This document shows positions 2,426 to 37,515 of a stretch of DNA of 38,061 bases, piece by piece. The DNA comes from Flavobacteriaceae bacterium. Lineage in GTDB: Bacteria > Bacteroidota > Bacteroidia > Flavobacteriales > Weeksellaceae. A model generated the notes under the pieces. That model worked only from the letters and a program-made list of their open reading frames with translations. It was not told the DNA's origin and made no database searches. The translations under genes and the position numbers were made by a program. The first letter of the stretch is position 1, and each line of letters begins with the position of its first letter. Location: the NCBI GenBank assembly GCA_031276535.1, contig JAISMV010000137.1, positions 1 to 38,061 of the forward strand. The letters run 5' to 3'.

Positions 2426-3097
2426 ATGATAATACAAAATTTTATACATGTTTTTTCCGCAGCTATAGTAGCTCTGTTTCCGGTGGTGAATCCGATAGGA
2501 AATGCATTTATTGTTAATAATTTTTTAGAAGGTCTGGATGATACCCAGAGAAAATCCGTAGTTAAACAAATTACTATTTATTGTGTTTGCATCGGATTGG
2601 GAAGCTTGATAATCGGAAGGTTGATTTTGTTTCTTTTCGGACTTTCTATCCCCGTAATTCAGTTAGGGGGTGGATTGATGATCTGCAAAACGGCTTTAGG
2701 CTGGCTTTCGGATAACAACAAAATGAAAAGCGGAGAAAGAAAAAAGCAAACAATGGATAGGTTGGATTATGAAAATATTCAAAAAGATATTTTCTATCCG
2801 ATAACTTTTCCCATTATTATGGGGTCGGGAAGTATTTCCGTTATATTCACTCTGGCAGCTAGTAGTATGGTTGAGGGGAATTATTCTTTGACAATTATGA
2901 ATTACCTGATTATAGCTCTGGTGATCTTAATACTTTGTGCAATGGTTTATTTCTTCCTGTCCAATGCTTCTAAAATTGTAAACAGAATAGGAACGTCAGG
3001 AAATCAGATCATTAATAAACTGATAGCATTTTTCACCTTTTGTATTGGTATTCAGATAGCTTTAACAGGCATCTTCAAAATATTTCATATAGAATAA
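2426..3097 (+). CDS. MarC family integral membrane protein (UPF0056)
   Basis: The 223-residue protein has the length and six-helix pattern of the MarC family. It has the N-terminal 'ALFPVVNPIGNAFIV' segment (about residues 16-30), which carries the family's conserved P-x-x-N-P-x-G signature, and a second conserved 'YPITFPIIMGSGSISVIFTL' segment (about 124-143). The two halves look like an inverted pair of three-helix repeats joined by a charged loop around residues 95-118. The role of MarC proteins is unknown; the original link to multiple antibiotic resistance was not upheld for E. coli MarC, so no resistance function is claimed. The start at 2426 puts the first transmembrane helix at the N-terminus. 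No operon partner is evident. Confidence 0.88.
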   Translation: MIIQNFIHVFSAAIVALFPVVNPIGNAFIVNNFLEGLDDTQRKSVVKQITIYCVCIGLGSLIIGRLILFLFGLSIPVIQLGGGLMICKTALGWLSDNNKMKSGERKKQTMDRLDYENIQKDIFYPITFPIIMGSGSISVIFTLAASSMVEGNYSLTIMNYLIIALVILILCAMVYFFLSNASKIVNRIGTSGNQIINKLIAFFTFCIGIQIALTGIFKIFHIE

Positions 3098-3468
3098 CGG
3101 ACAGACAAAATAATTTTAACCCGAAACTTGGATTAAATAATAGCCGTATAGAAAAATCCGATTAAAAAACAGGTCATTACCTTAATTTATTAGTACTTTT
3201 GACGTATCTGTCAGGTCAGGTATGTTGTTTGTGTGAGATGCTTACCTAATTATAGGTAAATATAACTTTAAAATTGATGCGTATCTAACCGATCTCAGAG
3301 GAAAAGCGAGCCTTTTCATGATAGGAAAATAAAAACACAAGTATCTGTACCATCAGGATTTACCGGCAATAAAAACATCCGTAACATCCGGCAGTGATGA
3401 TAAAAATACATTTTGTTTTAATTTTTTATTCCTATCTTGCATTGTAATTTCATTTATATCTCAACAAA
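3098..3468. other. Intergenic region with a small palindrome
   Basis: No gene is seen. Notable items: a perfect 7-bp inverted repeat TTACCTA (3242-3248) / TAGGTAA (3253-3259) with a 4-base centre; a 6-bp stem GAAAAG (3301-3306) / CTTTTC (3312-3317) with a 5-base loop; and an isolated TACTTTTG (3194-3201) that fits TAnnTTTG but has no gene close behind it. The palindrome could be an operator, but nothing in the sequence proves it. Confidence 0.4.
3412..3440 (+). promoter_or_regulatory. Candidate promoter of the kinase/RapZ-C pair
   Basis: TTTG at 3412-3415 and TATCTTGC at 3433-3440 are spaced 17 bases apart, close to the Bacteroidota sigma-ABfr pattern (TTG-N17-23-TAnnTTTG) with one T missing in the -7 box. 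Transcription would start about 20 bases before the GTG start at 3469. Confidence 0.4.
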
Positions 3469-4488
3469 GTGTTTGAAAGAATACATATTTTTCTAAAAGA
3501 CTATTTCCTTTCTGAAAGTTTTACATTGGAGCCTATCACCAATAGTGCCTCAAATAGAAAGTATTACAGAGTTGGATTTCATGAGGATTCTTATATTCTT
3601 ACTTTTAGCAACAACCTTCCCGAAACCCGTACATTTCTATATTTTTCGGCTATCTTCAAAGAAAAAGGCATTGCCGTTCCCGCCATCCTTAAAGTAGACG
3701 ATTCCTATGAAATTTATTTGCAGGAAGATGTAGGCAATACTCATCTTCTCTCTCTTTTAATTGAACAAAAAGAAAATGAAACCATTAAAAAGTTATACCA
3801 AAAATCTCTGGACGAGCTTATTAAACTCCAGTTTCAGGTTTCCCAAAAAATAGATTATTCGTATTGTTACGACTTTTCGGAATTTACTGACACGTTGGTT
3901 TATAATGATCTTAATTATTTCAAATTTTATTTTTTTCAGCCGCTGGAAATTCCTTTTTACAACAAAAAATTACTGAATGAATTTTCCGATATAGCTCAAA
4001 CCATAAGCACATTAGCCCCTCAGGGATTCATGTATCGTGATTTTCAAACGAGAAACATTATGATTAAAAATTCCCAACCTATCTTTATAGATTATCAGGG
4101 AGGAATGAAAGGAAACACGGTTTATGATCTGGTTTCACTGCTTTGGCAGGCAAAAGCTCAACTGTCTTCAGACTTCAAAAAAGAATTAAAAAACTATTAT
4201 TTTCAACAAGTTATAAATAAAACAAACATTTCCGAAATTCAATTGGAGGAAGCCTATCAATATTGCCTGTTAATCCGATTATTGCAAGTTTTAGGCGTTT
4301 ACGGATTTCGGGGAATCTTACAAAAAAAATCACATTTTACAGAAAGTATCTCTTTTGGAATCAATAACCTGAAATCCTTTCTGAAAGAAACGAATTTCAT
4401 TTCCGATTATCCCGAATTGTTACGCATCATTCAGGAATTATTCACGGAAGAGACCCAAACCAAAATAAAAAAATTAATTAACAAATAA
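3469..4488 (+). CDS. Aminoglycoside-phosphotransferase-fold sugar kinase (AmgK-like)
   Basis: The 339-residue protein has the choline/aminoglycoside kinase fold. The N-lobe contains 'NRKYYRV' and 'LQEDVGN' (about 29-35 and 84-90). The catalytic loop 'YRDFQTRN' (189-196) has D191 as base and N196, and the metal-binding 'IDYQGG' (207-212) has D208. Family members of this type include AmgK, which phosphorylates the anomeric carbon of N-acetylmuramate or N-acetylglucosamine in peptidoglycan recycling. The next gene, 8 bases downstream, encodes a stand-alone RapZ C-terminal domain, and this pairing is seen in other Bacteroidota. The start is GTG; upstream there is no ATG or better ribosome site. 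A cell-wall sugar substrate is inferred; a MurU-like partner is not present in this window. Confidence 0.72.
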   Translation: MFERIHIFLKDYFLSESFTLEPITNSASNRKYYRVGFHEDSYILTFSNNLPETRTFLYFSAIFKEKGIAVPAILKVDDSYEIYLQEDVGNTHLLSLLIEQKENETIKKLYQKSLDELIKLQFQVSQKIDYSYCYDFSEFTDTLVYNDLNYFKFYFFQPLEIPFYNKKLLNEFSDIAQTISTLAPQGFMYRDFQTRNIMIKNSQPIFIDYQGGMKGNTVYDLVSLLWQAKAQLSSDFKKELKNYYFQQVINKTNISEIQLEEAYQYCLLIRLLQVLGVYGFRGILQKKSHFTESISFGINNLKSFLKETNFISDYPELLRIIQELFTEETQTKIKKLINK

Positions 4489-26792: not shown

Positions 26793-26800
26793 TACCTTTG
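26793..26800 (+). promoter_or_regulatory. -7 promoter box of the first riboswitch operon
   Basis: TACCTTTG matches TAnnTTTG and lies directly upstream of the cobalamin riboswitch, so the leader would begin near 26807. Confidence 0.55.
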
Positions 26801-26804
26801 GCTT

Positions 26805-27024
26805 CAGATTTTGGTGTCACAATTCCGTATCTTCGGAAACGTGATGAAAAGGGAATCAGGTGCAAATCCTGAACAGACCCGCTGCTGTAAGCTCCGCTAA
26901 GATCTTTGAACAATACTCAATCCACTGTTTCGAATGAGAAATGGGAAGGACGTTCAAAGAAGGAGTAAGTCAGAAGACCTGCCGAGATTATTATATAGTT
27001 AACAAAGCTTTCGGGAAATAGAGC
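26805..27024 (+). ncRNA. Cobalamin riboswitch 1
   Basis: The conserved core is plain: 'GGGAATCAGGTGCAAATCC' (26851-26869), 'GACCCGCTGCTGTAA' (26876-26890) and the B12 box 'AGTCAGAAGACCTGCC' (26968-26983). A short hairpin follows the aptamer: GCTTT (27007-27011) with AGAGC (27020-27024) around loop CGGGAAAT. Its position suits the regulatory P13/L13 hairpin that kisses L5 when B12 is bound. The same hairpin recurs after riboswitch 2 with a base-pair change. Binding of adenosyl- or other cobalamin would switch off the btuB-like operon starting at 27131. About 105 bases separate the hairpin and ATG; no strong terminator was identified, so the final mode of control is open. Confidence 0.95.
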
Positions 27025-27130
27025 TGAAGAACACAAGATTTAAAAAAATACTGATTTACATCCAGTCTTACTTTTTTTGTGATTTAATCTCCCTGTATAA
27101 TTTTCTGCAAGCGGTTAGAATTTTAATAAG

Positions 27131-29188
27131 ATGTTATTTAGATTTAGTATCATAAAAAAACAGTTCGCAACCGGTTTATTTTGTTTCTCTGTCCTTGCTT
27201 CCGCACAGGAGAGATCAGATAGTTTGCGGCAACTCAAAGAGATTGTTGTAATAGCAAGACCTTTCCAAAAAATCATTCCTTCCCAGAAACTTACCGGAGT
27301 ACAGTTAGAGAAGCTCAACAGTCATTCCGTTGCAGATGCATTGCGTTATTTTGCCGGCGTCCAGATAAAAGACTATGGCGGCATGGGAGGGCTTAAAACC
27401 GTCAATGTGCGCAATATGGGAAGCACCCATGTAGGCGTATTTTATGATGGCATACAGTTAGGAAATGCCCAAAACGGAGTGGTCGATCTAGGAAAATTCT
27501 CATTGGACGATTTGGATGAAATATCGTTGTATAACGGGCAGAAAAGTGAGATTTTCCAATCAGCCAAAGACTTTGCCTCCGCTTCGGCGATCTATATCAA
27601 GGCAAAGAAGCCCAAATTTGCAGACAACAAAAAAACAAATCTTCTGGTTCGGTATAAAGCCGGTTCGATACAATTGATCAACCCTTCGGTGCGGTTAGAG
27701 CAAAAGATCAACGATCGATGGAATTTCAGTCTAAGTTCGGAATATATTAGATCGGATGGAAAATATAAATTCCGATACAAACGCAATAACGTAGACGGCA
27801 CAGTTGCCTACGATACGGTTGCCACCCGTTGGAACAGCGATATAGAAGCCCTGCGGATAGAAAGCGGATTATACGGAACCGTACAGAACGGACATTGGGA
27901 AACCAAATTGTATTACTATGGTTCGGACAGAGGATTACCCGGAGCTATTGTGAAAAATGTCTGGTATAACGGAGAACGGCAGGGTGATAAGAATTTTTTC
28001 GCACAGGCAGGTTTTACAAAAGATATAACGAGCAAATACAAATTTCAGATAAAAGGAAAATATGCATACGATTACACCCACTACCTGTCACGAGACTCCG
28101 TCCTTTTCATGGGAAGCAGTGTAACGAAGAAAATGCAGTTTGATAATAGCTATTATCAGCAGGAATTCTATCTGACGGCAGTTAACGCATACTCCATATC
28201 TCCCATATGGGATGTATCCCTGTCCGCCGATTTTCAATATAACAAGTTAAATGCGACGATGCGGGGTGTTGGTACGCTGTTTACCTATCCGCAGCGATAC
28301 AGTCTTTGGAGCTCATTAGCCTCCTCGCTGGATCTGGGAAAGCTGAAAGCCCAGACAAGCATATTGGGAACTTTCGTTACGGAAGAAGTGAGGAATAATG
28401 CCGGATCTCCGGATAAATCCGAATTAGCTCCGGCTGTATTCATCGGGTATCGTCCCTTTGAAAAACACGATTTCAATATCAGAGCCTTTGCCAAAAGAAT
28501 ATTCCGCATGCCGACATTTAACGATCTGTACTATACCCAGATAGGAAACAGCGTCCTGAAGCCGGAATATACCAACCAATACAATTTGGGATTCAGTTAT
28601 AACAAATCCTTCACCCTGTCTTTTCTCAATGCGGTGGCAGTACAATTAGACGCATACTACATGGATGTCACCGATAAGATCATAGCGGCTCCGACCGGAA
28701 GTAATTTCCGATGGATGATGACGAACATGGGAAAAGTTGAAGGGAAAGGACTTGACGCCACTTTAGGGGTAAAAGGACATATCGGAACGGTGGAACTAAA
28801 TACGAACCTTACATATTCATACTCAAAAGTTCAGGATTTCACAAAGATAAACGGAGTGAAAATGTCATCCCATGGAGACCAGATTCCTTACACCCCCTGG
28901 CATAGCGGCTCCGTCATTCTGAATATCTCCCGAAATACATGGTTTCTTAATTATAGCTTCATGTATGTCGGCGAACGTTATGACGGGGCGGTAAACAATA
29001 TAGCCAGAAACCACATTGAGCCGTGGTATACCCACGACATTTCCATTCAAAAGGAATGGACCTACAAAAAGTATAAGATAAAAGGTTCCGTAGAGATGAA
29101 CAACGCTCTGGATCAATATTACGATGTTGTATTAAACTACCCGATGCCGGGACGAAATTTCAGATTTGTATTAAATATAAGCCTATGA
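27131..29188 (+). CDS. btuB: TonB-dependent cobalamin receptor (BtuB-like)
   Basis: The 685-residue outer-membrane protein has a signal peptide (cleavage near 'LASA-QE', residue 25), a TonB-box-like 'LKEIVVIA' (35-42), a plug domain (about 45-155; 'DALRYFAGVQIKDYGGMGGLKTVNVRNMG') and a 22-strand barrel ending in 'RNFRFVLNISL', with Phe/Leu-rich C-terminus. There is no N-terminal carboxypeptidase-like extension, so it is of the BtuB type, not a SusC. The cobalamin riboswitch upstream makes B12 or a cobinamide the likely ligand, imported with TonB energy. Its stop overlaps the start of the BtuG-like gene by four bases (ATGA), so translation is coupled. Confidence 0.93.
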   Translation: MLFRFSIIKKQFATGLFCFSVLASAQERSDSLRQLKEIVVIARPFQKIIPSQKLTGVQLEKLNSHSVADALRYFAGVQIKDYGGMGGLKTVNVRNMGSTHVGVFYDGIQLGNAQNGVVDLGKFSLDDLDEISLYNGQKSEIFQSAKDFASASAIYIKAKKPKFADNKKTNLLVRYKAGSIQLINPSVRLEQKINDRWNFSLSSEYIRSDGKYKFRYKRNNVDGTVAYDTVATRWNSDIEALRIESGLYGTVQNGHWETKLYYYGSDRGLPGAIVKNVWYNGERQGDKNFFAQAGFTKDITSKYKFQIKGKYAYDYTHYLSRDSVLFMGSSVTKKMQFDNSYYQQEFYLTAVNAYSISPIWDVSLSADFQYNKLNATMRGVGTLFTYPQRYSLWSSLASSLDLGKLKAQTSILGTFVTEEVRNNAGSPDKSELAPAVFIGYRPFEKHDFNIRAFAKRIFRMPTFNDLYYTQIGNSVLKPEYTNQYNLGFSYNKSFTLSFLNAVAVQLDAYYMDVTDKIIAAPTGSNFRWMMTNMGKVEGKGLDATLGVKGHIGTVELNTNLTYSYSKVQDFTKINGVKMSSHGDQIPYTPWHSGSVILNISRNTWFLNYSFMYVGERYDGAVNNIARNHIEPWYTHDISIQKEWTYKKYKIKGSVEMNNALDQYYDVVLNYPMPGRNFRFVLNISL

Positions 29189-30321
29189 AAAAAATAGTGT
29201 ACCTAACCGTTATTTTATCCTTCTGTTTCCTTGTCTCCTGCCGGGAGGACGAGGTTGTATATTATTCGGATTCAACTCCGGTTTCCCCGCCGGCGGTGGA
29301 GGGTAATATACGGGGATTTTATTTGCTGAACGAGGGCAATATGGGCATGAATCGTGCCACATTAGATTATTTCGATTATACGACAGGCGTGTATACCCGG
29401 GATATATATTCGGAACGAAACCCCACAATAGTAAAAGAATTGGGCGATGTAGGCAATGATATAAAGATCTACGGAAGCAAAGCATATGCCGTTATCAACT
29501 GTTCACATTACATTGAAGTATTTGATGTTAAAACAACTAAACACATCAAGGGGATACCGGTTCCCAACTGCCGCTATATGGCATTTCATGAAGGCAAAGC
29601 ATACATCAGCTCATACGCGGGACCCGTTGCCATTGATCCGAATGCGGAAGTCGGATTCGTTGCCGAAATAGATACAACGACCCTTGAACTGACAAGAAAA
29701 GTAACCGTTGGCTACCAACCGGAAGAAATGGTAGTAAATAACGGAAAACTGTATGTTGCCAACTCGGGAGGGTATCGTGTACCCAATTATGACAATACCG
29801 TTTCGGTTGTTGATCTGAAAACATTCACCGAGATAAAAAAAATCGAAGTTGGCATCAATCTCCTTCGTATGCAGATAAATAAACAGGGCGATATCTTTGT
29901 CAGCTCACGGGGCGATTATTACCACACTCCCTCCAACCTGTTTGTTATAGACAGTAAGACCGACATGGTGACGGATACATTGAATATCCCCGTAAGCGAA
30001 ATGTGCATGATGGGCGATTCCCTGTACTTTTACAGCGTGGAATGGAGTTACCTGACCAACAGCAATTCCATAACCTACGGCATTCTGGACACGAAGAACA
30101 AAAAGAAAATAACCGATAAATTCATTACCGACGGAACCGAAAAACAAATAATGATTCCCTACGGATTATCGGTAAATCCCGAAACAAAAGAGATCTTTGT
30201 CTGTGACGCACAAAACTATGTAGTAACGGGATATATTTATTGCTTTACCCCCGACGGTAAGCTTAAATGGAAAACAACTGCCGGGAATATACCCGGACAT
30301 TTCGCATTTGTATACAAATAA
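29185..30321 (+). CDS. BtuG-like beta-propeller surface lipoprotein
   Basis: The 378-residue protein carries a lipoprotein signal (Cys19 in 'LVSCREDE'). The acidic residues after the Cys fit the Bacteroidota export signal for surface lipoproteins. The rest is a YncE/DUF5074-type beta propeller with repeated strands such as 'GFYLLNEGNMGMNRATLDYFD', 'GKAYISSYAG', 'GKLYVANSGG' and 'GDIFVSSRGD'. In Bacteroides thetaiotaomicron, BtuG is a surface propeller that binds B12 with very high affinity and passes it to BtuB. Here the gene overlaps btuB (ATGA) under a cobalamin riboswitch, so the same role is likely. The sequence alone does not prove ligand binding. Confidence 0.85.
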   Translation: MKKIVYLTVILSFCFLVSCREDEVVYYSDSTPVSPPAVEGNIRGFYLLNEGNMGMNRATLDYFDYTTGVYTRDIYSERNPTIVKELGDVGNDIKIYGSKAYAVINCSHYIEVFDVKTTKHIKGIPVPNCRYMAFHEGKAYISSYAGPVAIDPNAEVGFVAEIDTTTLELTRKVTVGYQPEEMVVNNGKLYVANSGGYRVPNYDNTVSVVDLKTFTEIKKIEVGINLLRMQINKQGDIFVSSRGDYYHTPSNLFVIDSKTDMVTDTLNIPVSEMCMMGDSLYFYSVEWSYLTNSNSITYGILDTKNKKKITDKFITDGTEKQIMIPYGLSVNPETKEIFVCDAQNYVVTGYIYCFTPDGKLKWKTTAGNIPGHFAFVYK

Positions 30322-30335
30322 AATCAACAAAAAAT

Positions 30336-31337
30336 ATGAGAAAAATTTACTTTAAGTATTTACTGGCAGTATCGGTTTGCATGTTTACAGTAGCGTGCAG
30401 CAGTGATGATGACAATGATCCGGTTCCGAAACCGGAAAGCGCAAAGAGTCCGTATATCTCAAAGGTATATGACTTTATACCGGCAGTGGGACAGTTTACC
30501 AACGAACTGCCCAAGTACGAACCGGGAGACACCTATGAAACTATGGTGAAAAAAGCGGAAGACATGATAAAAGGAGAAAAACCGGCGGGAATGATTTCCT
30601 TGGGAGGCTTCGGAGGATATGTTGTCTTCGGATTCGACCACACGGTAGAGAACGTACCCGGAAAACGAGACATTCGCATTTCGGCTAATGCATTCTGGGC
30701 GGCAGCCAATCCGAACCCTGACGCAAACAAAAGAGGCGGAAGCTGCGAACCCGGAGTTATCATGGTTTCATACGACGCGAATGCCAACGGATTGCCCGAT
30801 GACCCATGGTATGAAATTGCAGGCAGTGAACATTCGAAATCAAAAAAGAACTATGAGATTACCTATTACCGCCCGGATCCCAATAAAAAACCCGTTCTGG
30901 ACGAAAAAGAATCTTATGCCACAGATGTTAAATATATCTACTGGACGGATAATCATGGAAAATCCGGGTATAAGATGAAAAACCAATATCATTCACAAAG
31001 TTATTATCCCGAATGGATCAAAGGAGACAAGATCACGTTTAAAGGAACATTATTACCTGATAACGCAGTGGAAGAAAGTGGCGAAGGCAAATATTGGGTA
31101 CAGTATTCTTTCGATTACGGATATGCGGACAATGCGCCCAATACGGACGACGAATCGGCTATAGACATTGATTGGGCGGTGGACGAGAACGGAAAAAAAG
31201 TTAACCTTCCGGGAGTGAATTTTGTAAAAGTATATAACGGACTGAATCAGGAATGCGGCTGGCTCGGAGAAACCTCCACCGAAATTTCAGGCGCTCAGGA
31301 TCTTCATCTGTTAGGAATATCAATTTCAACAAAATAA
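30336..31337 (+). CDS. Acidic surface lipoprotein of the cobalamin operon
   Basis: From ATG 30336 the protein has 333 residues; a longer reading from 30267 would overlap the BtuG-like gene and hide the signal. The lipobox Cys is at 21 ('FTVACSSDDDND'), followed by an Asp-rich surface-export signal. The body has conserved-looking stretches 'KVYDFIPAVGQFTNELPKY', 'SLGGFGGYVVFGFDHTVEN', 'GRRISANAF'-type strands, 'SCEPGVIMVSYDANANGLPDDPWYEIAGSE' and 'GVNFVKVYNGLNQECGWLGE'. Proteins of this type, called PKD-domain or cell-surface proteins, occur beside BtuB/BtuG in Bacteroides cobalamin loci. 'DANANGLPDD' may bind calcium. It starts 14 bases after its upstream neighbour. Function is inferred as part of surface B12 capture. 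Confidence 0.75.
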   Translation: MRKIYFKYLLAVSVCMFTVACSSDDDNDPVPKPESAKSPYISKVYDFIPAVGQFTNELPKYEPGDTYETMVKKAEDMIKGEKPAGMISLGGFGGYVVFGFDHTVENVPGKRDIRISANAFWAAANPNPDANKRGGSCEPGVIMVSYDANANGLPDDPWYEIAGSEHSKSKKNYEITYYRPDPNKKPVLDEKESYATDVKYIYWTDNHGKSGYKMKNQYHSQSYYPEWIKGDKITFKGTLLPDNAVEESGEGKYWVQYSFDYGYADNAPNTDDESAIDIDWAVDENGKKVNLPGVNFVKVYNGLNQECGWLGETSTEISGAQDLHLLGISISTK

Positions 31338-31346
31338 AAAAATACT

Positions 31347-33890
31347 ATGAAAAAAATTAATCTGGCGATCATTATGTTCTGCATAAGTTTTGGCATCTCT
31401 GCACAAAACCAGCTGACTAAGAATCTGCCGCCTCTGAAAGGATCCGTTGCATTAAAAAATGCAAAAACGGAGGAAACTCCCGTTGATTATACCAAGGGAG
31501 TGTTTTTTGTAAATGAAGACTGGTTCGGGCATAACAACAGTACGGTCAATTTCCTGTCAGATGAAGGAACCTGGGCGTATCGGATATTCAAGAAGGAAAA
31601 TCCCGGTCATGAGCTGGGCTGTACCACGCAATACGGAGCCATTTACGGCGGAAAATTCTATCTGGTGTCCAAGCAGTATCAGGATGTCGGAGCCAAAGTT
31701 CCCGGAAGCCGCTTGGCTGTATGCGATGCCACAACCATGAAGCTCATCAAGGAATTTGAATATTTCGGAAAAAATGCCAACGGTGTCTCTATCGCTGACG
31801 GGCGATCTTTTTTAGGTGTAGACGAGCACAAAGGATATATAGGTACCAGTAACGGCATCTTTACCTTTGATATCGACAATATGACAATCGGTTCGCAGAT
31901 TCCCGGAACTACCAGTAATACCGGTGGTTTGTACAGCGCACAAATAGGTACAATGCTTCGTGCAGCGGATAAAGTGTTTGCCGTCCATCAGAAAGAAGGA
32001 CTTCTTGTTATTGATCCGGTTAAGGACGAAGTGATCACTACCATTCAGGCGCCAAAGGATGGTACGCTTCAAAGAGGATTCGGTTCGGTCGTACAATCAA
32101 AAGACGGAATTCTATGGCTTAGTGTCGCTGAGAATCAATCAGGAGGTGGCGGCTCCTGTGATTATATGATACGGCTTGACCCCTGGACCTTAGACAGCAC
32201 CCGTGTATCCCTGCCTGCAGGAATGCAGATTCCCAACTCATGGTATGCCTGGACAGCCGACGGATTTTTTTCAAGTACGGCAGAGAATAAGATATATTGG
32301 AAAAATAATGGAGGATGGTTTAATGCCAGAAGAATTATATGCTACGATATTGATAAAAAAGAATTTAAGGAAATAATAAATACAGGAACTATTGATAAAA
32401 AGAAAGATTGGGGGATCTACGGCGCTTCCGTGCGTATTCATCCCGTTACGGATGAAATATACGCCTCTTTGTTTAAGCAATTCAATGATCCGGAATATAT
32501 AACGATTCGCATGAATAAAGAAGGCAAAATACTTCAGACCTATGAAATGGAGCAAAATTACTGGTTTCCGGCAATGCCCGTATTCCCCGATAATTATGAC
32601 CCTGCCATTGAACTTTCCGAACTTACCGTTTATCAGGATACGATAATCTCCTTGAATGACAAGATACTGGATAAGGACAATATGTCCGTTGCCATTGTCA
32701 AATCTCTCACCGGTGTTGACAATGCGCTGATAGATGCTTCCATTTACCGTGATGCATTGAAGATCACTCGCAAAGTTGCCGAAGGAAAGACAAAGTTCAC
32801 CCTGAAAGTAAACTCCAACGGTAAACTTCTGGAAAAAGAAATAATCGTTAACATTATAACGTTAACCTCCCCGAAAATAACCCAACAACCCGTATCGATA
32901 AGCAAATACTATGGAGAATCCGCCACCTTCTCCCTGACGGCGGAAGGAGGTCTTTTATCTTACCAGTGGTATAAGGACGGAGTCGCGATAGAGGGAGCGG
33001 ATCAACCCTCCTATACGATAGCCGATACCAACCTGAACAATGCTTCGCAGGGAGAATATTATTGTGAAGTGTCTAACCTTAAAGGAAAGGTTGTCTCTGA
33101 AAAAGCGACCCTGACCGTTTTGGGCAATATCCTGTCCAAGGTAGAGATCGACGGCGAAGAATGGGATATAACCAAAACCTATGTTGTGCCGGAAGGTAAG
33201 GCAGGCTCTCATCTGACCGTAGAGTTGTTTCCCGTAAACTCCAACATAGAAGTATATTACGGCGGAACGCTTTTGTCTGATAACACCTATAAGGTAAGCC
33301 TTTCCCAACCCTTCCATAAAGTTTATACCTTTACGTTGAAAGCCGGTAGCGGCTTTTCCGTCAATTATGGCGTTACAATAGAAAAACGCTTCAATTTCGA
33401 TGATATTGTAGTTACCCGTTGGAATAACTCTCTGATCGTGAACGATAACAGCACGACAAACGGAGGATTCGATTTTGTCGGGTATAAATGGTTTAAGGAC
33501 GGTGCGGAAATCGGTATCGGACAATACTATTCCGCAGGACAGAAAAAAACAGACCTGTTAAGCGGTAATTACGAGGTACAGCTGATAACCAAAGACGGAC
33601 AAACGCTGCGCACATGGAACAAATCGATCGCGTTGAAAAGCTCAACAGGCTTGAAGGCGTATCCTAATCCTTTGCAGAAAGGAGAATCCGTTTCCGTTCA
33701 GCTGGATATTGATCCGGAGCTGTTAACCGATGCGGTGATAGAAGTTTACAACATCAACGGAGCCAAGATCAGCAGCGTTAAGGCTGTCGGCGCCGTCACT
33801 CCGGTTGCCTTGCCCGCATCTTCCGGTACGTATATCATCAAGGTACGGTCGGGAGAGTTTTCAGAAACACAAAAGTTGATCGTGAAATAG
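31347..33890 (+). CDS. T9SS-exported DUF5074-type propeller with Ig-like domains
   Basis: The 847-residue protein begins with a signal peptide ('MKKINLAIIMFCISFGISAQ'). Residues about 45-420 form a DUF5074-like propeller ('GVFFVNEDWFGHNNSTVNFL', 'GGKFYLVSKQYQDVG', 'KGYIGTSNGIFTFDID'). An Ig-like domain follows (about 510-592; 'QQPVSISKYYGESATFSL', 'YQWYKDGV', 'GEYYCEVSN'), then a cadherin-like beta sandwich (about 595-680). A shared module 'KRFNFDDIVVTRWNNSLIV' comes next, and a T9SS type A sorting domain ends the protein (about 769-847; 'YPNPLQKGESVSVQL' to 'TYIIKVRSGEF'). It is the last gene of the first riboswitch operon (9 bases after the previous stop). A cobalamin-binding or cell-surface capture role is inferred. 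Confidence 0.82.
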   Translation: MKKINLAIIMFCISFGISAQNQLTKNLPPLKGSVALKNAKTEETPVDYTKGVFFVNEDWFGHNNSTVNFLSDEGTWAYRIFKKENPGHELGCTTQYGAIYGGKFYLVSKQYQDVGAKVPGSRLAVCDATTMKLIKEFEYFGKNANGVSIADGRSFLGVDEHKGYIGTSNGIFTFDIDNMTIGSQIPGTTSNTGGLYSAQIGTMLRAADKVFAVHQKEGLLVIDPVKDEVITTIQAPKDGTLQRGFGSVVQSKDGILWLSVAENQSGGGGSCDYMIRLDPWTLDSTRVSLPAGMQIPNSWYAWTADGFFSSTAENKIYWKNNGGWFNARRIICYDIDKKEFKEIINTGTIDKKKDWGIYGASVRIHPVTDEIYASLFKQFNDPEYITIRMNKEGKILQTYEMEQNYWFPAMPVFPDNYDPAIELSELTVYQDTIISLNDKILDKDNMSVAIVKSLTGVDNALIDASIYRDALKITRKVAEGKTKFTLKVNSNGKLLEKEIIVNIITLTSPKITQQPVSISKYYGESATFSLTAEGGLLSYQWYKDGVAIEGADQPSYTIADTNLNNASQGEYYCEVSNLKGKVVSEKATLTVLGNILSKVEIDGEEWDITKTYVVPEGKAGSHLTVELFPVNSNIEVYYGGTLLSDNTYKVSLSQPFHKVYTFTLKAGSGFSVNYGVTIEKRFNFDDIVVTRWNNSLIVNDNSTTNGGFDFVGYKWFKDGAEIGIGQYYSAGQKKTDLLSGNYEVQLITKDGQTLRTWNKSIALKSSTGLKAYPNPLQKGESVSVQLDIDPELLTDAVIEVYNINGAKISSVKAVGAVTPVALPASSGTYIIKVRSGEFSETQKLIVK

Positions 33891-33963
33891 AACGTTTCTT
33901 TCGGGTTGGGACAATCGTATTATATGCCTAATATATTGAAGAGGAATGGAATATCGGAAATAA

Positions 33964-34154
33964 GAGCCTGTTTAAATTTTATTGTGATTATTTTCTATTG
34001 CTATTTTTGAGATGGATTTTTTGCTTTTTATTTGAAGATTTAGCGGGCTAAATCAAGAAGAAAAAGAGAAAAAGACGCTCAAAAGAGCTTAAAAAGAATG
34101 CAAAATATAATTAGAACCTAAAAATAAATATTTGAGTAAAATTTAAACAGGCTC
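33964..34154. mobile_element. MITE with 18-bp terminal inverted repeats
   Basis: GAGCCTGTTTAAATTTTA (33964-33981) is the exact reverse complement of 34137-34154. The element is 191 bp, has no ORF, and is bounded by TAA on both sides (33961-33963 and 34155-34157), a 3-bp target duplication. The T-N-A target and the GAGCCTG end are like those of IS5-group elements (IS1031 subgroup), which would have to mobilise it in trans. An internal 8-bp stem, GATTTAGC (34037-34044) with GCTAAATC (34047-34054), is also present. Confidence 0.85.
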
Positions 34155-34284
34155 TAAGATTGCCCATAACCCGTAAAGAAGTTATGATTTAGTAATTAAA
34201 ACGGTAAAATAACAGTAAAAAAAGGTAAAATCATTCGGCTAAATATCACTATATAAAAAAACGGAATATTTTTATAGGTATGTC

Positions 34285-34315
34285 TTGCCGAAGAATTATT
34301 TTTCACCTATATTTG
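34285..34315 (+). promoter_or_regulatory. Promoter of the second riboswitch operon
   Basis: TTG (34285-34287), a 20-base spacer and TATATTTG (34308-34315) give a complete Bacteroidota promoter. A 7-bp inverted repeat, TATAGGT (34273-34279) and ACCTATA (34305-34311), spans the -33 element and runs into the -7 box; it may be chance or an operator. Confidence 0.6.
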
Positions 34316-34317
34316 TA

Positions 34318-34532
34318 TTCGGATTTTGGTGTCACGTTTCCGGTTCTTCGGAAACGTGGTGAAAAGGGAATCAGGTGCGAATCCTGAACAGACCCGCTGC
34401 TGTAAGCTCTGCCATAGTCTTTGGATAAGACCCGATCCACTGTCTTTTTTAAGATGGGAAGGAATTCAAAGATGGAGTAAGTCAGAAAACCTGCCAGAAT
34501 CATATAGTTTAAAAGCTTTCGTGGAATAAAGC
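34318..34532 (+). ncRNA. Cobalamin riboswitch 2
   Basis: The core matches riboswitch 1: 'GGGAATCAGGTGCGAATCC' (34366-34384), 'GACCCGCTGCTGTAA' (34391-34405) and B12 box 'AGTCAGAAAACCTGCC' (34480-34495), which has one base changed in the box. The following hairpin GCTTT (34515-34519) / AAAGC (34528-34532) with loop CGTGGAAT matches that of riboswitch 1, with one T-G pair replaced by T-A, so it is structurally conserved. It would repress the secreted-protein gene at 34651 when cobalamin is plentiful. About 118 bases lie between the hairpin and the start codon, with a weak stem around AGGTT (34559-34563) that could form part of the expression platform. Confidence 0.95.
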
Positions 34533-34650
34533 TGAAGACGATCGAAGTATAAACAGAGGTTTCGCATAACCTTGTTTTACTCTGTGCCTTCTTCTTTCTT
34601 ATACGAAAACTGTTAGTAGTATACTAGTAATTTTTAATCTCTAATTTACC

Positions 34651-35586
34651 ATGAGAATGAGAAAGATTTCGTTATTTTTAATGTTATGGGTCGTCAGCAT
34701 GGGGCTTTCTGCCCAAACTACACCCAAAAAAGTTCAGGGAATTATCCATGACGGGCTTCGCAACGCGAAGATCAGAACTCAGCCGAAGCAGGCCAAACAA
34801 CTCCAAAATCTTAAAAACAACACGGATACCATTAACTTCAACAGTATCCTGTTTTGGGTTGGAACCGGCGATAATCGCGCTGCACTGGTTATCAAATGGA
34901 ATGATAGCTTAGGAAACGTAAATGCCCGTGTATGGGGGTATAGATGGAATAAGAACGAAACCAAAACAAGCAAGGACCTGCTGACTGCCGTAGCCAATGC
35001 CGATCCCCGCTTTACTGTTCTGATGCAGGATACGGGTATATCTCCGGCCACAAAGGATACGCTCAATTACGCCATTAGCGGTATCGGTTATAACTTTACG
35101 GCAAGCAGGAGGGCGCCTGCTCTTTTCTTCGATTATGTCGGGGCAGGGAAAGATGATAATATTAGTTTTCATTATATCCCTCCTCCCAATACAGGTATGG
35201 GACAACATAGCGTTCCGGTAGATCCTTCGGGTGAAGCAGCTCTTGCTATCTCGGACGGAACCGCACCGGGGACAGGTCTTGGCAAAGGAGTGATTGAACA
35301 TCCGTTTAATTATCTGACCTATGGTTACCCTGCCTACGACTACGATCATTGGCAATTGCTACCACCACCGGATTCAACGCAAAGCTGGCGTGCCGGATGG
35401 TATGAAGGATACTGGAGTTTCTATACCAAAAATGCCCCTATCGGAAGTTGGGAATATTCAGAATGGGGAGCTTCCCAGCGCGTATTGCAGGATAATTACG
35501 TAGACGGCTGGAGCTTTTGTGGGAACATGAGCAGTTGGTACTGTGCCGATATGAGCGGAGAATATACGCCGGTTCCGGTTCCTTGA
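34651..35586 (+). CDS. Small secreted protein under cobalamin riboswitch 2 (WGYRW motif)
   Basis: The 311-residue protein has a signal peptide ('MRMRKISLFLMLWVVSMGLSAQ'); the start could also be the ATG at 34657. The central region reads 'ILFWVGTGDNRAALVIKWND', then 'ARVWGYRWNKNETKTSKDLL' and 'ADPRFTVLMQ'. I recognise this block as a motif of secreted proteins linked to cobalamin control in several phyla, but cannot name the family with certainty. The C-terminal part is rich in Trp and Tyr and has a close Cys pair, 'CGNMSSWYC'. No T9SS domain and no lipobox are present, so it is probably periplasmic or released. Aromatic-rich surfaces and the riboswitch suggest binding of corrinoid; that is inference. 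A 12-bp hairpin follows the gene. Confidence 0.7.
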   Translation: MRMRKISLFLMLWVVSMGLSAQTTPKKVQGIIHDGLRNAKIRTQPKQAKQLQNLKNNTDTINFNSILFWVGTGDNRAALVIKWNDSLGNVNARVWGYRWNKNETKTSKDLLTAVANADPRFTVLMQDTGISPATKDTLNYAISGIGYNFTASRRAPALFFDYVGAGKDDNISFHYIPPPNTGMGQHSVPVDPSGEAALAISDGTAPGTGLGKGVIEHPFNYLTYGYPAYDYDHWQLLPPPDSTQSWRAGWYEGYWSFYTKNAPIGSWEYSEWGASQRVLQDNYVDGWSFCGNMSSWYCADMSGEYTPVPVP

Positions 35587-35622
35587 AAATTGAATAGTAC
35601 CATTCTGGTGAATACACCTTAT

Positions 35623-35655
35623 ACCGAAGGGAATGACCGGGTTATTCCCTTCGGT
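35623..35655 (+). terminator. Strong hairpin after the WGYRW gene
   Basis: ACCGAAGGGAAT (35623-35634) and ATTCCCTTCGGT (35644-35655) form a perfect 12-bp stem around a 9-base loop. The T run after it is poor (TCTATAACTT), so it may attenuate rather than stop transcription into the next gene. Confidence 0.7.
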
Positions 35656-35697
35656 TCTATAACTTAAAAAATAAAATAAAAACTAATCTTTTATATA

Positions 35698-37515
35698 ATG
35701 AATAAAATTATACTTTTGTTTCTTTGTTTCTGCCCGGTCATGGGTTATGATGTAAAGGCAGGGAATATTCTAACCGTTACCAATACCGAAGATGTCGGCA
35801 CTGCGGCAACAGCGCCGGAAGGATCTTTTCGTAAAATACTGTCAAAAGCTGCCGAAGGAGATACCATTGTATTTGATCCTTCTTTGAAAAATGACACCAT
35901 TTATATAAGCCAAAGCATCACGTCAAGCATAAACAATCTGACTATCCGGGGAAACGGGATAACAATTTTTGGAAAAAAATCCAATTACCTAAGGTTTAGT
36001 TCGGCTTCTGTTACGGTAGAAAATATGGGGTTTAACGGGAAAATGTATTTAGCTTTATATAATATTACTAAAGGAATAGTTCGGGGCTGTATCTTTAACG
36101 GATGTGCGTCGGTGGGATTAATGATTCAAAAAACACTTTCGCTAGTAGAAAATAAGTATTGTTTGGTGGAAGGCTGCTCTTTCAGCAATATAGGTTCATC
36201 TTCCGGTGAAGCCATTGTCATTAGTAACTCGGCATCTACCCCCTTATCGGTAGACGTTGTTTCCTGCACCTTTGTCGACAATGTCTTACAATCGGAAAAA
36301 AGCGACAAAAAAGCGGGTATAACCATAAGCGCTTATAAATATGGAAGCCTGGAGCCGGTTGTAAGGATCGCCAATTGTGTATTCAGGAACAATAAGAACG
36401 TAGCAAAAGATCCGTTATATTATCAGGATCTTCCGGTGATCGCGTCAAAGGATCTAACTTCTTTGGGTTATAATATCATAGAAGGCAAGCTTTCATCGGA
36501 AGGAAGCCAGAAAATTCATGAAACAGATGTTCTGTCAGAAGATGTCGGAGAAGTATTCCGTCTGGAAGATTCCATATACAAGGTTTTAAAAACCGGAAAA
36601 GCCTATCAAAACTTCCCTGCCAACACCACAATTGCGGGAATCGAAATGCCTGAGCATGACGTTCTGGAAACTAAGATAGATTACACTCAGGCTACTCATA
36701 GCGGCGCCTGTCAGGAAGTTTTCACTTCTGATGATGCAAGTCTGTTCCAACTGATCTCCGAATACAAAGATATAGTCGACATAAAGGAAATCTATCCGGT
36801 TCCGTTGTCGCATACGGCTTCGACAGCCGTATTCACTGTGGTACCTGCCGCCCCGAAAGCAAAGGTTTATCTGGGAGAAACAGAACTGGAAAATAAACAA
36901 CTGACCGTAGACGTATCGAAACCATCGGTTCAGACAGTCACCTTTAAGATAGTTTCGGCAGACGAAACCAACACCGGTCTATACACCCTGAAAGTGGAAA
37001 AACGCTTCAATTTCGATGCGATCGTAATCACCCGTTGGAATAACTCCCTGATCGTAAACAACAACAGCGCAACAAACGGAGGATTTGAATTTGTCGGGTA
37101 TAAATGGTTTAAGGAGGGTACGGAAATCGGTACCGGACAATACTATTCCGCAGGACAGAAAAAAACAGACCTACTGGCAGCCGATGGCAAATACTGGGTA
37201 CAGCTGATAACCAAAGACGGACAAACGCTCCGCACATGGGAAAGCGAAAAAATAGCACTGAAAAGCTCAACAGGCTTGAAAGTATATCCGAATCCGTTAC
37301 AGGCAGGAGAAGCCGTTTCCGTTCAGCTGGACATTGATCCGGAGCTGCTAACCGATGCCGTGATAGAAGTTTACAATATCAACGGAGCTAAGGTCAACAG
37401 CGTTAAGGCTGCCGGTGTTATCACTCAGGTTGCCCTGCCTGCATCCGCGGGTATTTATGTCATCAAAGTCCGATCAGGAAATTTTGTTGAGGAAAAGAAA
37501 TTAATCATAAAATAA
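35698..37515 (+). CDS. Right-handed beta-helix-like protein, T9SS type A sorting domain
   Basis: The 605-residue protein starts with a signal peptide (to about residue 22). Residues about 25-310 carry repeated short strands of a parallel beta-helix, such as 'TIVFDPSLKNDTIYISQSI', 'LTIRGNGITIFG', 'CIFNGC', 'CSFSNIGSSSGEAIVIS' and 'CTFVDN'. A cadherin-like beta sandwich follows (about 360-432), then the same module and sorting domain as in the 31347 gene (about 434-605; 'KRFNFDAIVITRWNNSLIVN', 'YPNPLQAGEAVSVQLDIDPE'). It should be secreted and fixed to the surface by T9SS. It lies 43 bases after the hairpin at 35623-35655 and 22 bases before an outer-membrane barrel gene. Whether it belongs to B12 uptake is inferred only from position. 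Confidence 0.8.
   Translation: MNKIILLFLCFCPVMGYDVKAGNILTVTNTEDVGTAATAPEGSFRKILSKAAEGDTIVFDPSLKNDTIYISQSITSSINNLTIRGNGITIFGKKSNYLRFSSASVTVENMGFNGKMYLALYNITKGIVRGCIFNGCASVGLMIQKTLSLVENKYCLVEGCSFSNIGSSSGEAIVISNSASTPLSVDVVSCTFVDNVLQSEKSDKKAGITISAYKYGSLEPVVRIANCVFRNNKNVAKDPLYYQDLPVIASKDLTSLGYNIIEGKLSSEGSQKIHETDVLSEDVGEVFRLEDSIYKVLKTGKAYQNFPANTTIAGIEMPEHDVLETKIDYTQATHSGACQEVFTSDDASLFQLISEYKDIVDIKEIYPVPLSHTASTAVFTVVPAAPKAKVYLGETELENKQLTVDVSKPSVQTVTFKIVSADETNTGLYTLKVEKRFNFDAIVITRWNNSLIVNNNSATNGGFEFVGYKWFKEGTEIGTGQYYSAGQKKTDLLAADGKYWVQLITKDGQTLRTWESEKIALKSSTGLKVYPNPLQAGEAVSVQLDIDPELLTDAVIEVYNINGAKVNSVKAAGVITQVALPASAGIYVIKVRSGNFVEEKKLIIK

Follow-up and report, generated by a model that had tools for sequence, protein, structure and literature searches.

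In gut Bacteroides, the capture of vitamin B12 at the cell surface is described as the work of lipoproteins and vesicles. The question raised by the present locus is whether a flavobacterium couples the same uptake to proteins exported by the type IX secretion system (T9SS). The window, i.e. the whole stretch of DNA analysed, is the complete contig JAISMV010000137.1 (38,061 nucleotides; hereafter C55) of a Flavobacteriaceae genome of 2.29 Mb in 152 contigs (GCA_031276535.1). We identified two neighbouring units, each headed by a cobalamin riboswitch, that probably encode a cobalamin-repressed system for B12 capture at the outer surface, including an exported propeller of the BtuK type and a module that we call WGYRW. 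An original prediction, made from the DNA sequence, had proposed such an island with seven genes, and the seven open reading frames (ORFs) were found at the places that it gave. The elements of the two units are as follows.

26795..27000, + strand: cobalamin riboswitch 1 (RF00174, 100.3 bits, E 4e-24)
27131..29188, + strand: btuB, TonB-dependent B12 receptor of the BtuB1 type (PDB 8blw_A and Plug domain)
29185..30321, + strand: btuG, propeller lipoprotein, putative lid of BtuB (8ptd, 8ptf and 8blw_B matches)
30336..31337, + strand: btuH, B12-binding lipoprotein by homology (C-terminal half of 8blw_B, 7biz)
31347..33890, + strand: btuK-like gene, 847 amino acids, with signal peptide, DUF5074 propeller (nucleotides 31494-32588), immunoglobulin (Ig) domain and T9SS type A tail (nucleotides 33660-33887) (Pfam, TIGR04183, 9s6c)
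34310..34512, + strand: cobalamin riboswitch 2 (RF00174, 107.1 bits, E 4.6e-26)
34651..35586, + strand: WGYRW-domain protein, long type, with a Sec-type signal (by eye) and no lipobox

The B12 operon and its T9SS-tailed propeller

The only matches above the gathering score (31.5) in the window are these two RF00174 riboswitches, both aligned over model positions 1-189, as had been predicted for the heads of the two units. Unit 1 comprises riboswitch 1, btuB, btuG, btuH and the gene of the T9SS-tailed propeller, and unit 2 comprises riboswitch 2 and the WGYRW gene. The genome contains two more RF00174 riboswitches: one on contig C119, preceding a second btuB-btuG-btuH set, and one on contig C33, preceding what by eye looks like a B12-independent metE. 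A cobalamin riboswitch ahead of a TonB receptor has also been reported in Flavobacterium psychrophilum (PMC9723704).

The predicted pair of a BtuB-like receptor and a BtuG-like lipoprotein was borne out. BtuB matches PDB 8blw_A (‘Vitamin B12 transporter BtuB1’, Bacteroides thetaiotaomicron) over residues 32-683 (E 1.2e-129). The btuG start overlaps the btuB end by ATGA, and the BtuG protein has a signal with an LVSC lipobox-like motif (judged by eye), 61 bits with Pfam DUF5074 and matches to 8ptd/8ptf and to the BtuG1 part of 8blw_B (E about 2e-48). The third product had been described as an acidic surface lipoprotein. Its start is best placed at the ATG in position 30336 and a lipobox-like TVAC is present, but its identity had been missed: it is a BtuH by homology, matching the BtuH part (C-terminal half) of 8blw_B (E 1.6e-74) and BtuH2 (7biz; E 1.6e-40). 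Eight residues are reported to contact B12 in BtuH2 (Gln333, Asn399, Phe401, His476, Tyr510, Trp511, Trp577 and Leu578; PMC8941943), and 8/8 are identical in the alignment of the window protein, with a chain numbering offset of 100 inferred from the letters.

We then considered the 847-residue protein. Its propeller covers residues 50-414 (380 bits with DUF5074), and its tail scores 42.5 bits with TIGR04183 for a cut-off of 23. The Ig domain has a stronger PDB match than the propeller, to Ig repeats of a phage tail protein; outside this domain, the best PDB sequence match is 9s6c, titled BtuK1 (E 4e-11). For the fold search, the model used was that of a relative, not of the window propeller (fusion protein of locus L025, Epilithonimonas hungarica; predicted local distance difference test (pLDDT) 72.8, predicted template modelling score (pTM) 0.62). 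Foldseek against 350,542 chains ranked 9s6c (‘B12 Binding protein - BtuK1’) first (3e-15), followed at ranks 2-17 by sixteen BtuG-type chains (down to 1.1e-10), while the first other propeller appeared at 7.3e-9. The original prediction had pointed to BtuG structures for this protein. It does appear BtuK/BtuG-like by sequence and, in the L025 model, by predicted fold, but its domain seems nearer to BtuK1 than to BtuG. As a T9SS tail stands in place of the lipoprotein anchoring of BtuK, the protein is BtuK-like by domain and not by anchoring, and we do not class it as a BtuK. It shares with other T9SS type A cargo the TIGR04183 tail, the signal peptide and the presence of SprA_N of the T9SS in the genome (475 bits); its particularity is to be a BtuK-like propeller encoded in a cobalamin-riboswitch operon.

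Conservation of the operon and the WGYRW domain

One genome of each of 84,980 species was scanned with the WGYRW profile A3, which gave 228 relatives, and the best 80 of these 228 loci were examined (mostly Chryseobacterium, but also Flavobacterium, Epilithonimonas and Soonwooa). The order riboswitch, btuB, btuG, btuH and a WGYRW domain fused to a BtuK-like propeller was found in 76 of the 80 loci. Loci L030 and L086 contain all parts, though drawn differently (riboswitch inside the btuB stop-to-stop frame; broken frames). A B12-box pattern marks the riboswitch in 78/80 loci, once per locus and at btuB, and Rfam was positive in 7/7 of those checked. All 63 fusions scanned have a T9SS tail (L086, which is broken, and 16 others above a size limit were omitted). 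Because of this operon order in 76/80 loci and of the tail in 63/63 fusions, T9SS-tailed proteins in B12 operons are a conserved flavobacterial arrangement, and the predicted place of the tailed propeller in the operon holds. The window propeller protein shares 34.7 to 40.1% identity (local alignments) with 79 of the fusions. The window WGYRW protein ends (GEYTPVPVP) at the very point where the propeller linker begins in the fusions, and the window propeller begins directly after the position of that linker. In G286, a genome from another family of the class, the same gene order is seen with the WGYRW and DUF5074 domains on two separate lipoproteins; the pair of domains thus recurs with another anchor. 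The genome of the window also encodes another DUF5074 propeller of the BtuK type, likewise T9SS-tailed (L135, 8280-9980, - strand; contig end close upstream), with a fusion-like leader kept and without WGYRW.

The window WGYRW protein matches no Pfam family at E 0.1, DUF4465 (BtuJ) included, no NCBIfam family above a cut-off, neither TIGR04183 nor Por_Secre_tail, and no PDB entry below E 0.6. The WGYRW profiles A1 and A8 matched no PDB entry below E 0.39. Judged from these comparisons, the domain is covered by no Pfam, NCBIfam or PDB family. Two kinds of candidates were rejected for WGYRW proteins: SCO2322_fam of NCBIfam (E 0.014, 0.018 and 0.17; far under its cut-off) and unrelated NCBIfam families (e.g. 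E 0.0007, with 19 bits for a cut-off of 400). The domain exists in a long type and a short type that form one homologous family (hhalign 99.1%, E 1.4e-18, 118 columns). The short type has about 120 residues and is often found in tandem, with a T9SS tail. On plasmids, a search with the long-type domain found no match, and a short-type protein was matched by its C-terminal half only, in 2 records.

The short type was followed in the order, where profile A2 has matches in 54 of 346 genomes at E 0.01. We retained 21 loci, i.e. those of 20 genomes whose short-type matches are clear (E 1e-19 or better) and that of G028; long-type fusions (about 1e-11 to 1e-15) were excluded, and anything at 4e-4 or weaker was regarded as noise. 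In 21/21 loci, the short-type gene lies inside a riboswitch-headed unit. For 19 of them (L008, L009, L020 and 16/18 others), a same-strand upstream riboswitch was present in the first flank; L144 and L161, which had none there, were also riboswitch-headed once longer DNA was read (L171, behind a propeller gene, and L172, behind btuB). In comparison, ten WGYRW-bearing genomes, about 40.6 Mb together, contain 30 riboswitches that pass the cut-off, which corresponds to a chance of about 0.25% per 3.4-kb stretch; the related genomes do not amount to 21 independent events. A T9SS tail was found in 13/13 short-type proteins scanned. With the fusion in a conserved operon and the short type behind a riboswitch at every locus, the predicted membership of the WGYRW protein in the B12 regulon is supported, and the domain could serve as a marker of B12 regulons in unannotated genomes.

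The neighbours of the short type are also related to B12. BtuB-like receptors stand beside it in L139, L172-L174 and L176, and BtuG/DUF5074-like propellers in L139, L172 and L173. In L171, a T9SS-tailed BtuG/DUF5074 propeller of 426 amino acids (2506-3783, - strand) comes directly under its own cobalamin riboswitch and is followed by a WGYRW-T9SS gene. In G028 (L138), the riboswitch is followed by WGYRW-T9SS, CobT, CobS and a CobC-like histidine phosphatase. Further T9SS-tailed proteins were observed in riboswitch-headed B12 operons (L172, 4395-5378; L173, 5351-6325; L174, 7387-8331; all on the - strand), with a common N-terminal motif near GQPGSTAI or GQSGSTAV. They match no Pfam family beyond the tail, and the L174 protein has no PDB match below E 0.4; this is possibly a further B12 surface protein.

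Proposed function, known systems and competing explanations

The capture system that we favour would work as follows. At low B12, both riboswitches would permit the expression of both units, as is known for such riboswitches in Bacteroides. BtuB and its BtuG lid would import B12 while BtuH would hold it on the surface, by homology with the proteins of Bacteroides, for which the BtuB-BtuG lid mechanism has been described (PMC10404256) and BtuG is able to take B12 from intrinsic factor (PMC6143338). The BtuK-type propeller, whose tail is observed, would be exported through the T9SS and then be either fixed to the surface or released. WGYRW would be a second exported B12-linked module, fused before the propeller in most relatives and separate under its own riboswitch here; most likely it would bind cobamides, or help the propeller to hold them or to pass them to BtuG-BtuB. 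We thus infer that these proteins bind B12 and are displayed at the surface. A more specific proposal, which we put forward as tentative, is that WGYRW represents a novel kind of cobamide-binding domain outside the cell, unrelated to BtuG, BtuH, BtuJ and BtuK, which the T9SS would display either by itself as tandem copies or joined to a BtuK-type propeller, the two domains then holding B12 between them before BtuG-BtuB.

Several elements of this system have known counterparts. B12 locus 1 of B. thetaiotaomicron encodes BtuK1, BtuK2, BtuH1, BtuB1, BtuGH and BtuJ1, and has in common with the window a cobalamin riboswitch, a BtuB1-type receptor, BtuG and BtuH sequence and a BtuK-type propeller. 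However, BtuG and BtuH are fused there (BtuG1/BtuGH) and the accessory proteins are predicted lipoproteins, whereas the window has separate btuG and btuH genes, a T9SS-tailed propeller and an added WGYRW gene. Another point of comparison is the BtuJ/DUF4465 family (IPR027828), in which C-terminal export motifs of IPR026444 and IPR013424 occur; we take these two entries to be T9SS and PEP-CTERM tails. This family consists of extracellular B12 binders, with such motifs in 38% of 824 sequences (PMC12751083), and in one DUF4465 cluster 40% are co-located with PF16819 propellers (PMC13398666). Unlike these jelly-roll proteins, the window proteins are a propeller and an unnamed domain, and DUF4465 has no match among the seven window proteins scanned. 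The original prediction knew of no description of T9SS export of further propeller proteins as surface B12 binders. For BtuK-type propellers and for the WGYRW domain, we found none either among the papers listed in searches of the open-licence literature, but the principle is already partly known, since BtuJ/DUF4465 proteins with C-terminal export motifs have been reported (PMC12751083). As prior papers cover the pieces and none of those listed deals with T9SS-exported BtuK-type propellers or WGYRW, the novelty consists of known pieces in a new arrangement and of one unnamed domain family. If T9SS export of B12-capture domains does take place in Chryseobacterium, Flavobacterium and Epilithonimonas, it would constitute a second export route in the competition for this vitamin, and a domain with no Pfam or NCBIfam name would gain a testable ligand.

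Some observations weigh against this capture system. The window WGYRW protein lacks both a lipobox and a T9SS tail, hence has no visible surface anchor, and its AlphaFold 2 model only reaches a pLDDT of 38.3. The fold match of the propeller comes from the model of a relative. The 80 loci are mostly from one genus and are not independent, and one of them, L092, is truncated by the end of its contig. In L023 (Epilithonimonas hispanica), the fusion is present with no cobalamin riboswitch and no btuB within 10 kb upstream, and in G262 the riboswitch is followed by btuH and the fusion, btuB and btuG being absent from the unit. Moreover, WGYRW is rare in the sample of the phylum, with at least 8 of 395 genomes for profile A1 and at least 9 of 395 for profile A2 (own genome included in both), these counts being lower bounds as only part of the first-look candidates was scored in many genomes. 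It can be added that L023 (7629-12142) has btuH in two frames and an open fusion gene, and resembles a decaying B12 locus.

Finally, resemblance to BtuK1 is no guarantee of binding. BtuK1 binds cyanocobalamin (Kd 8.9e-11 M by surface plasmon resonance; PMC12751083), yet BtuK2, which is similar to it, did not bind B12 (PMC12751083). It is conceivable, albeit unlikely, that the T9SS propeller and WGYRW are members of the B12 regulon that, like BtuK2 and BtuL of B. thetaiotaomicron, do not bind B12, and that they act as surface scaffolds or vesicle helpers; BtuL promotes early vesicle release (PMC12751083), and WGYRW has no relative of known function. However, the sequence and fold matches are to the binder BtuK1 and to BtuG structures, many of them with bound B12, and in G028 the WGYRW gene stands among B12 salvage genes with no propeller alongside.

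We also compared WGYRW with the beta domain of intrinsic factor and transcobalamin, of which it could be a bacterial form that clamps B12 against the propeller. A helix, a YW motif and then a glycine-containing segment come in a similar order in both, and hhalign of the short-type profile with the mammalian beta domain gave P 0.011 (0/150 column shuffles as good; score 20.2, reversed 9.0). However, the hhalign probability is only 3.8%, and this target was picked after the motif had been seen by eye. The long type (P 0.055; 5/150 shuffles as good) and the merged WGYRW profile (P 0.07; 8/200 shuffles as good) came less close, and the WGYRW profiles have no PDB hit. Besides, DUF4430, which we take to be the family of this beta domain, was found in 0/148 genomes of the phylum. 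These results are mixed, and we consider this relationship improbable, somewhat more so than the absence of B12 binding. Among eight control slices of fusion proteins, one outscored the realigned short type (24.7 vs. 20.9); we took it as a contaminated control, because the T9SS tail seems to begin within it and profile A8 enters the same tail in its last row (L008:819-1266). With the short type, none of the remaining seven slices scored above 16.9.

The end of unit 2 and repeats in the genome

The original prediction had included two more genes, downstream of WGYRW, in the B12 island. Three elements are concerned.

35623..35655, + strand: hairpin of 15 pairs (one G-U), located after the WGYRW gene and before the beta-helix gene; unit 2 possibly ends here
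35698..37515, + strand: beta-helix protein with a T9SS type A tail (TIGR04183, 47.7 bits for a cut-off of 23)
from 37538, truncated by the contig end: outer-membrane barrel

The hairpin stretch has a folding energy of -28.2 kcal/mol (z -3.95), and 0/200 shuffles were as low. The hairpin is not followed by a T tract, and a terminator scan gave no site between the WGYRW and beta-helix genes; co-transcription of these two genes can thus be called unlikely, but not more than that. The genes are collinear, the beta-helix protein has a T9SS tail and about 245 of its C-terminal residues are 65% identical (160/247 columns) to those of the propeller protein (window 33165-33887 vs. 36778-37512). However, this common stretch includes the T9SS tail and corresponds to the tail together with a stalk that precedes it. 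Among 98 other relatives, no real homologue of the beta-helix protein was detected (two hits, E 5.5e-5 and 1.6e-4). Neither its N-terminal 331 residues nor the barrel have a homologue at E 1e-3 in 94 B12 loci (the 80 loci of the relatives and 14 others). In L172, a protein of 699 amino acids that by eye resembles a beta-helix surface protein (492-2588, - strand) is encoded beyond the B12 operon, with an ORF of the opposite strand in between, and has no detectable relation to the window beta-helix protein. With the hairpin and the absence of homologues, beta-helix and barrel are not supported as B12 components, and a single island of all seven genes is very improbable.

An element resembling a miniature inverted-repeat transposable element (MITE), with perfect 19-nucleotide inverted repeats, lies between the two units (window 33963-34155). 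The 2.29-Mb genome gave 223 first-look candidates for it; of these, 40 were scored and all 40, the window copy included, are near-full copies, the others being 93-97% identical. Several contigs start within or close to a copy. The second B12 operon has a copy directly after its btuH (C119:7292-7486). In L134 (7627-9711), a CHU_C-type T9SS protein of 695 amino acids with a PKD domain follows the second btuB-btuG-btuH set, with a MITE copy between them.

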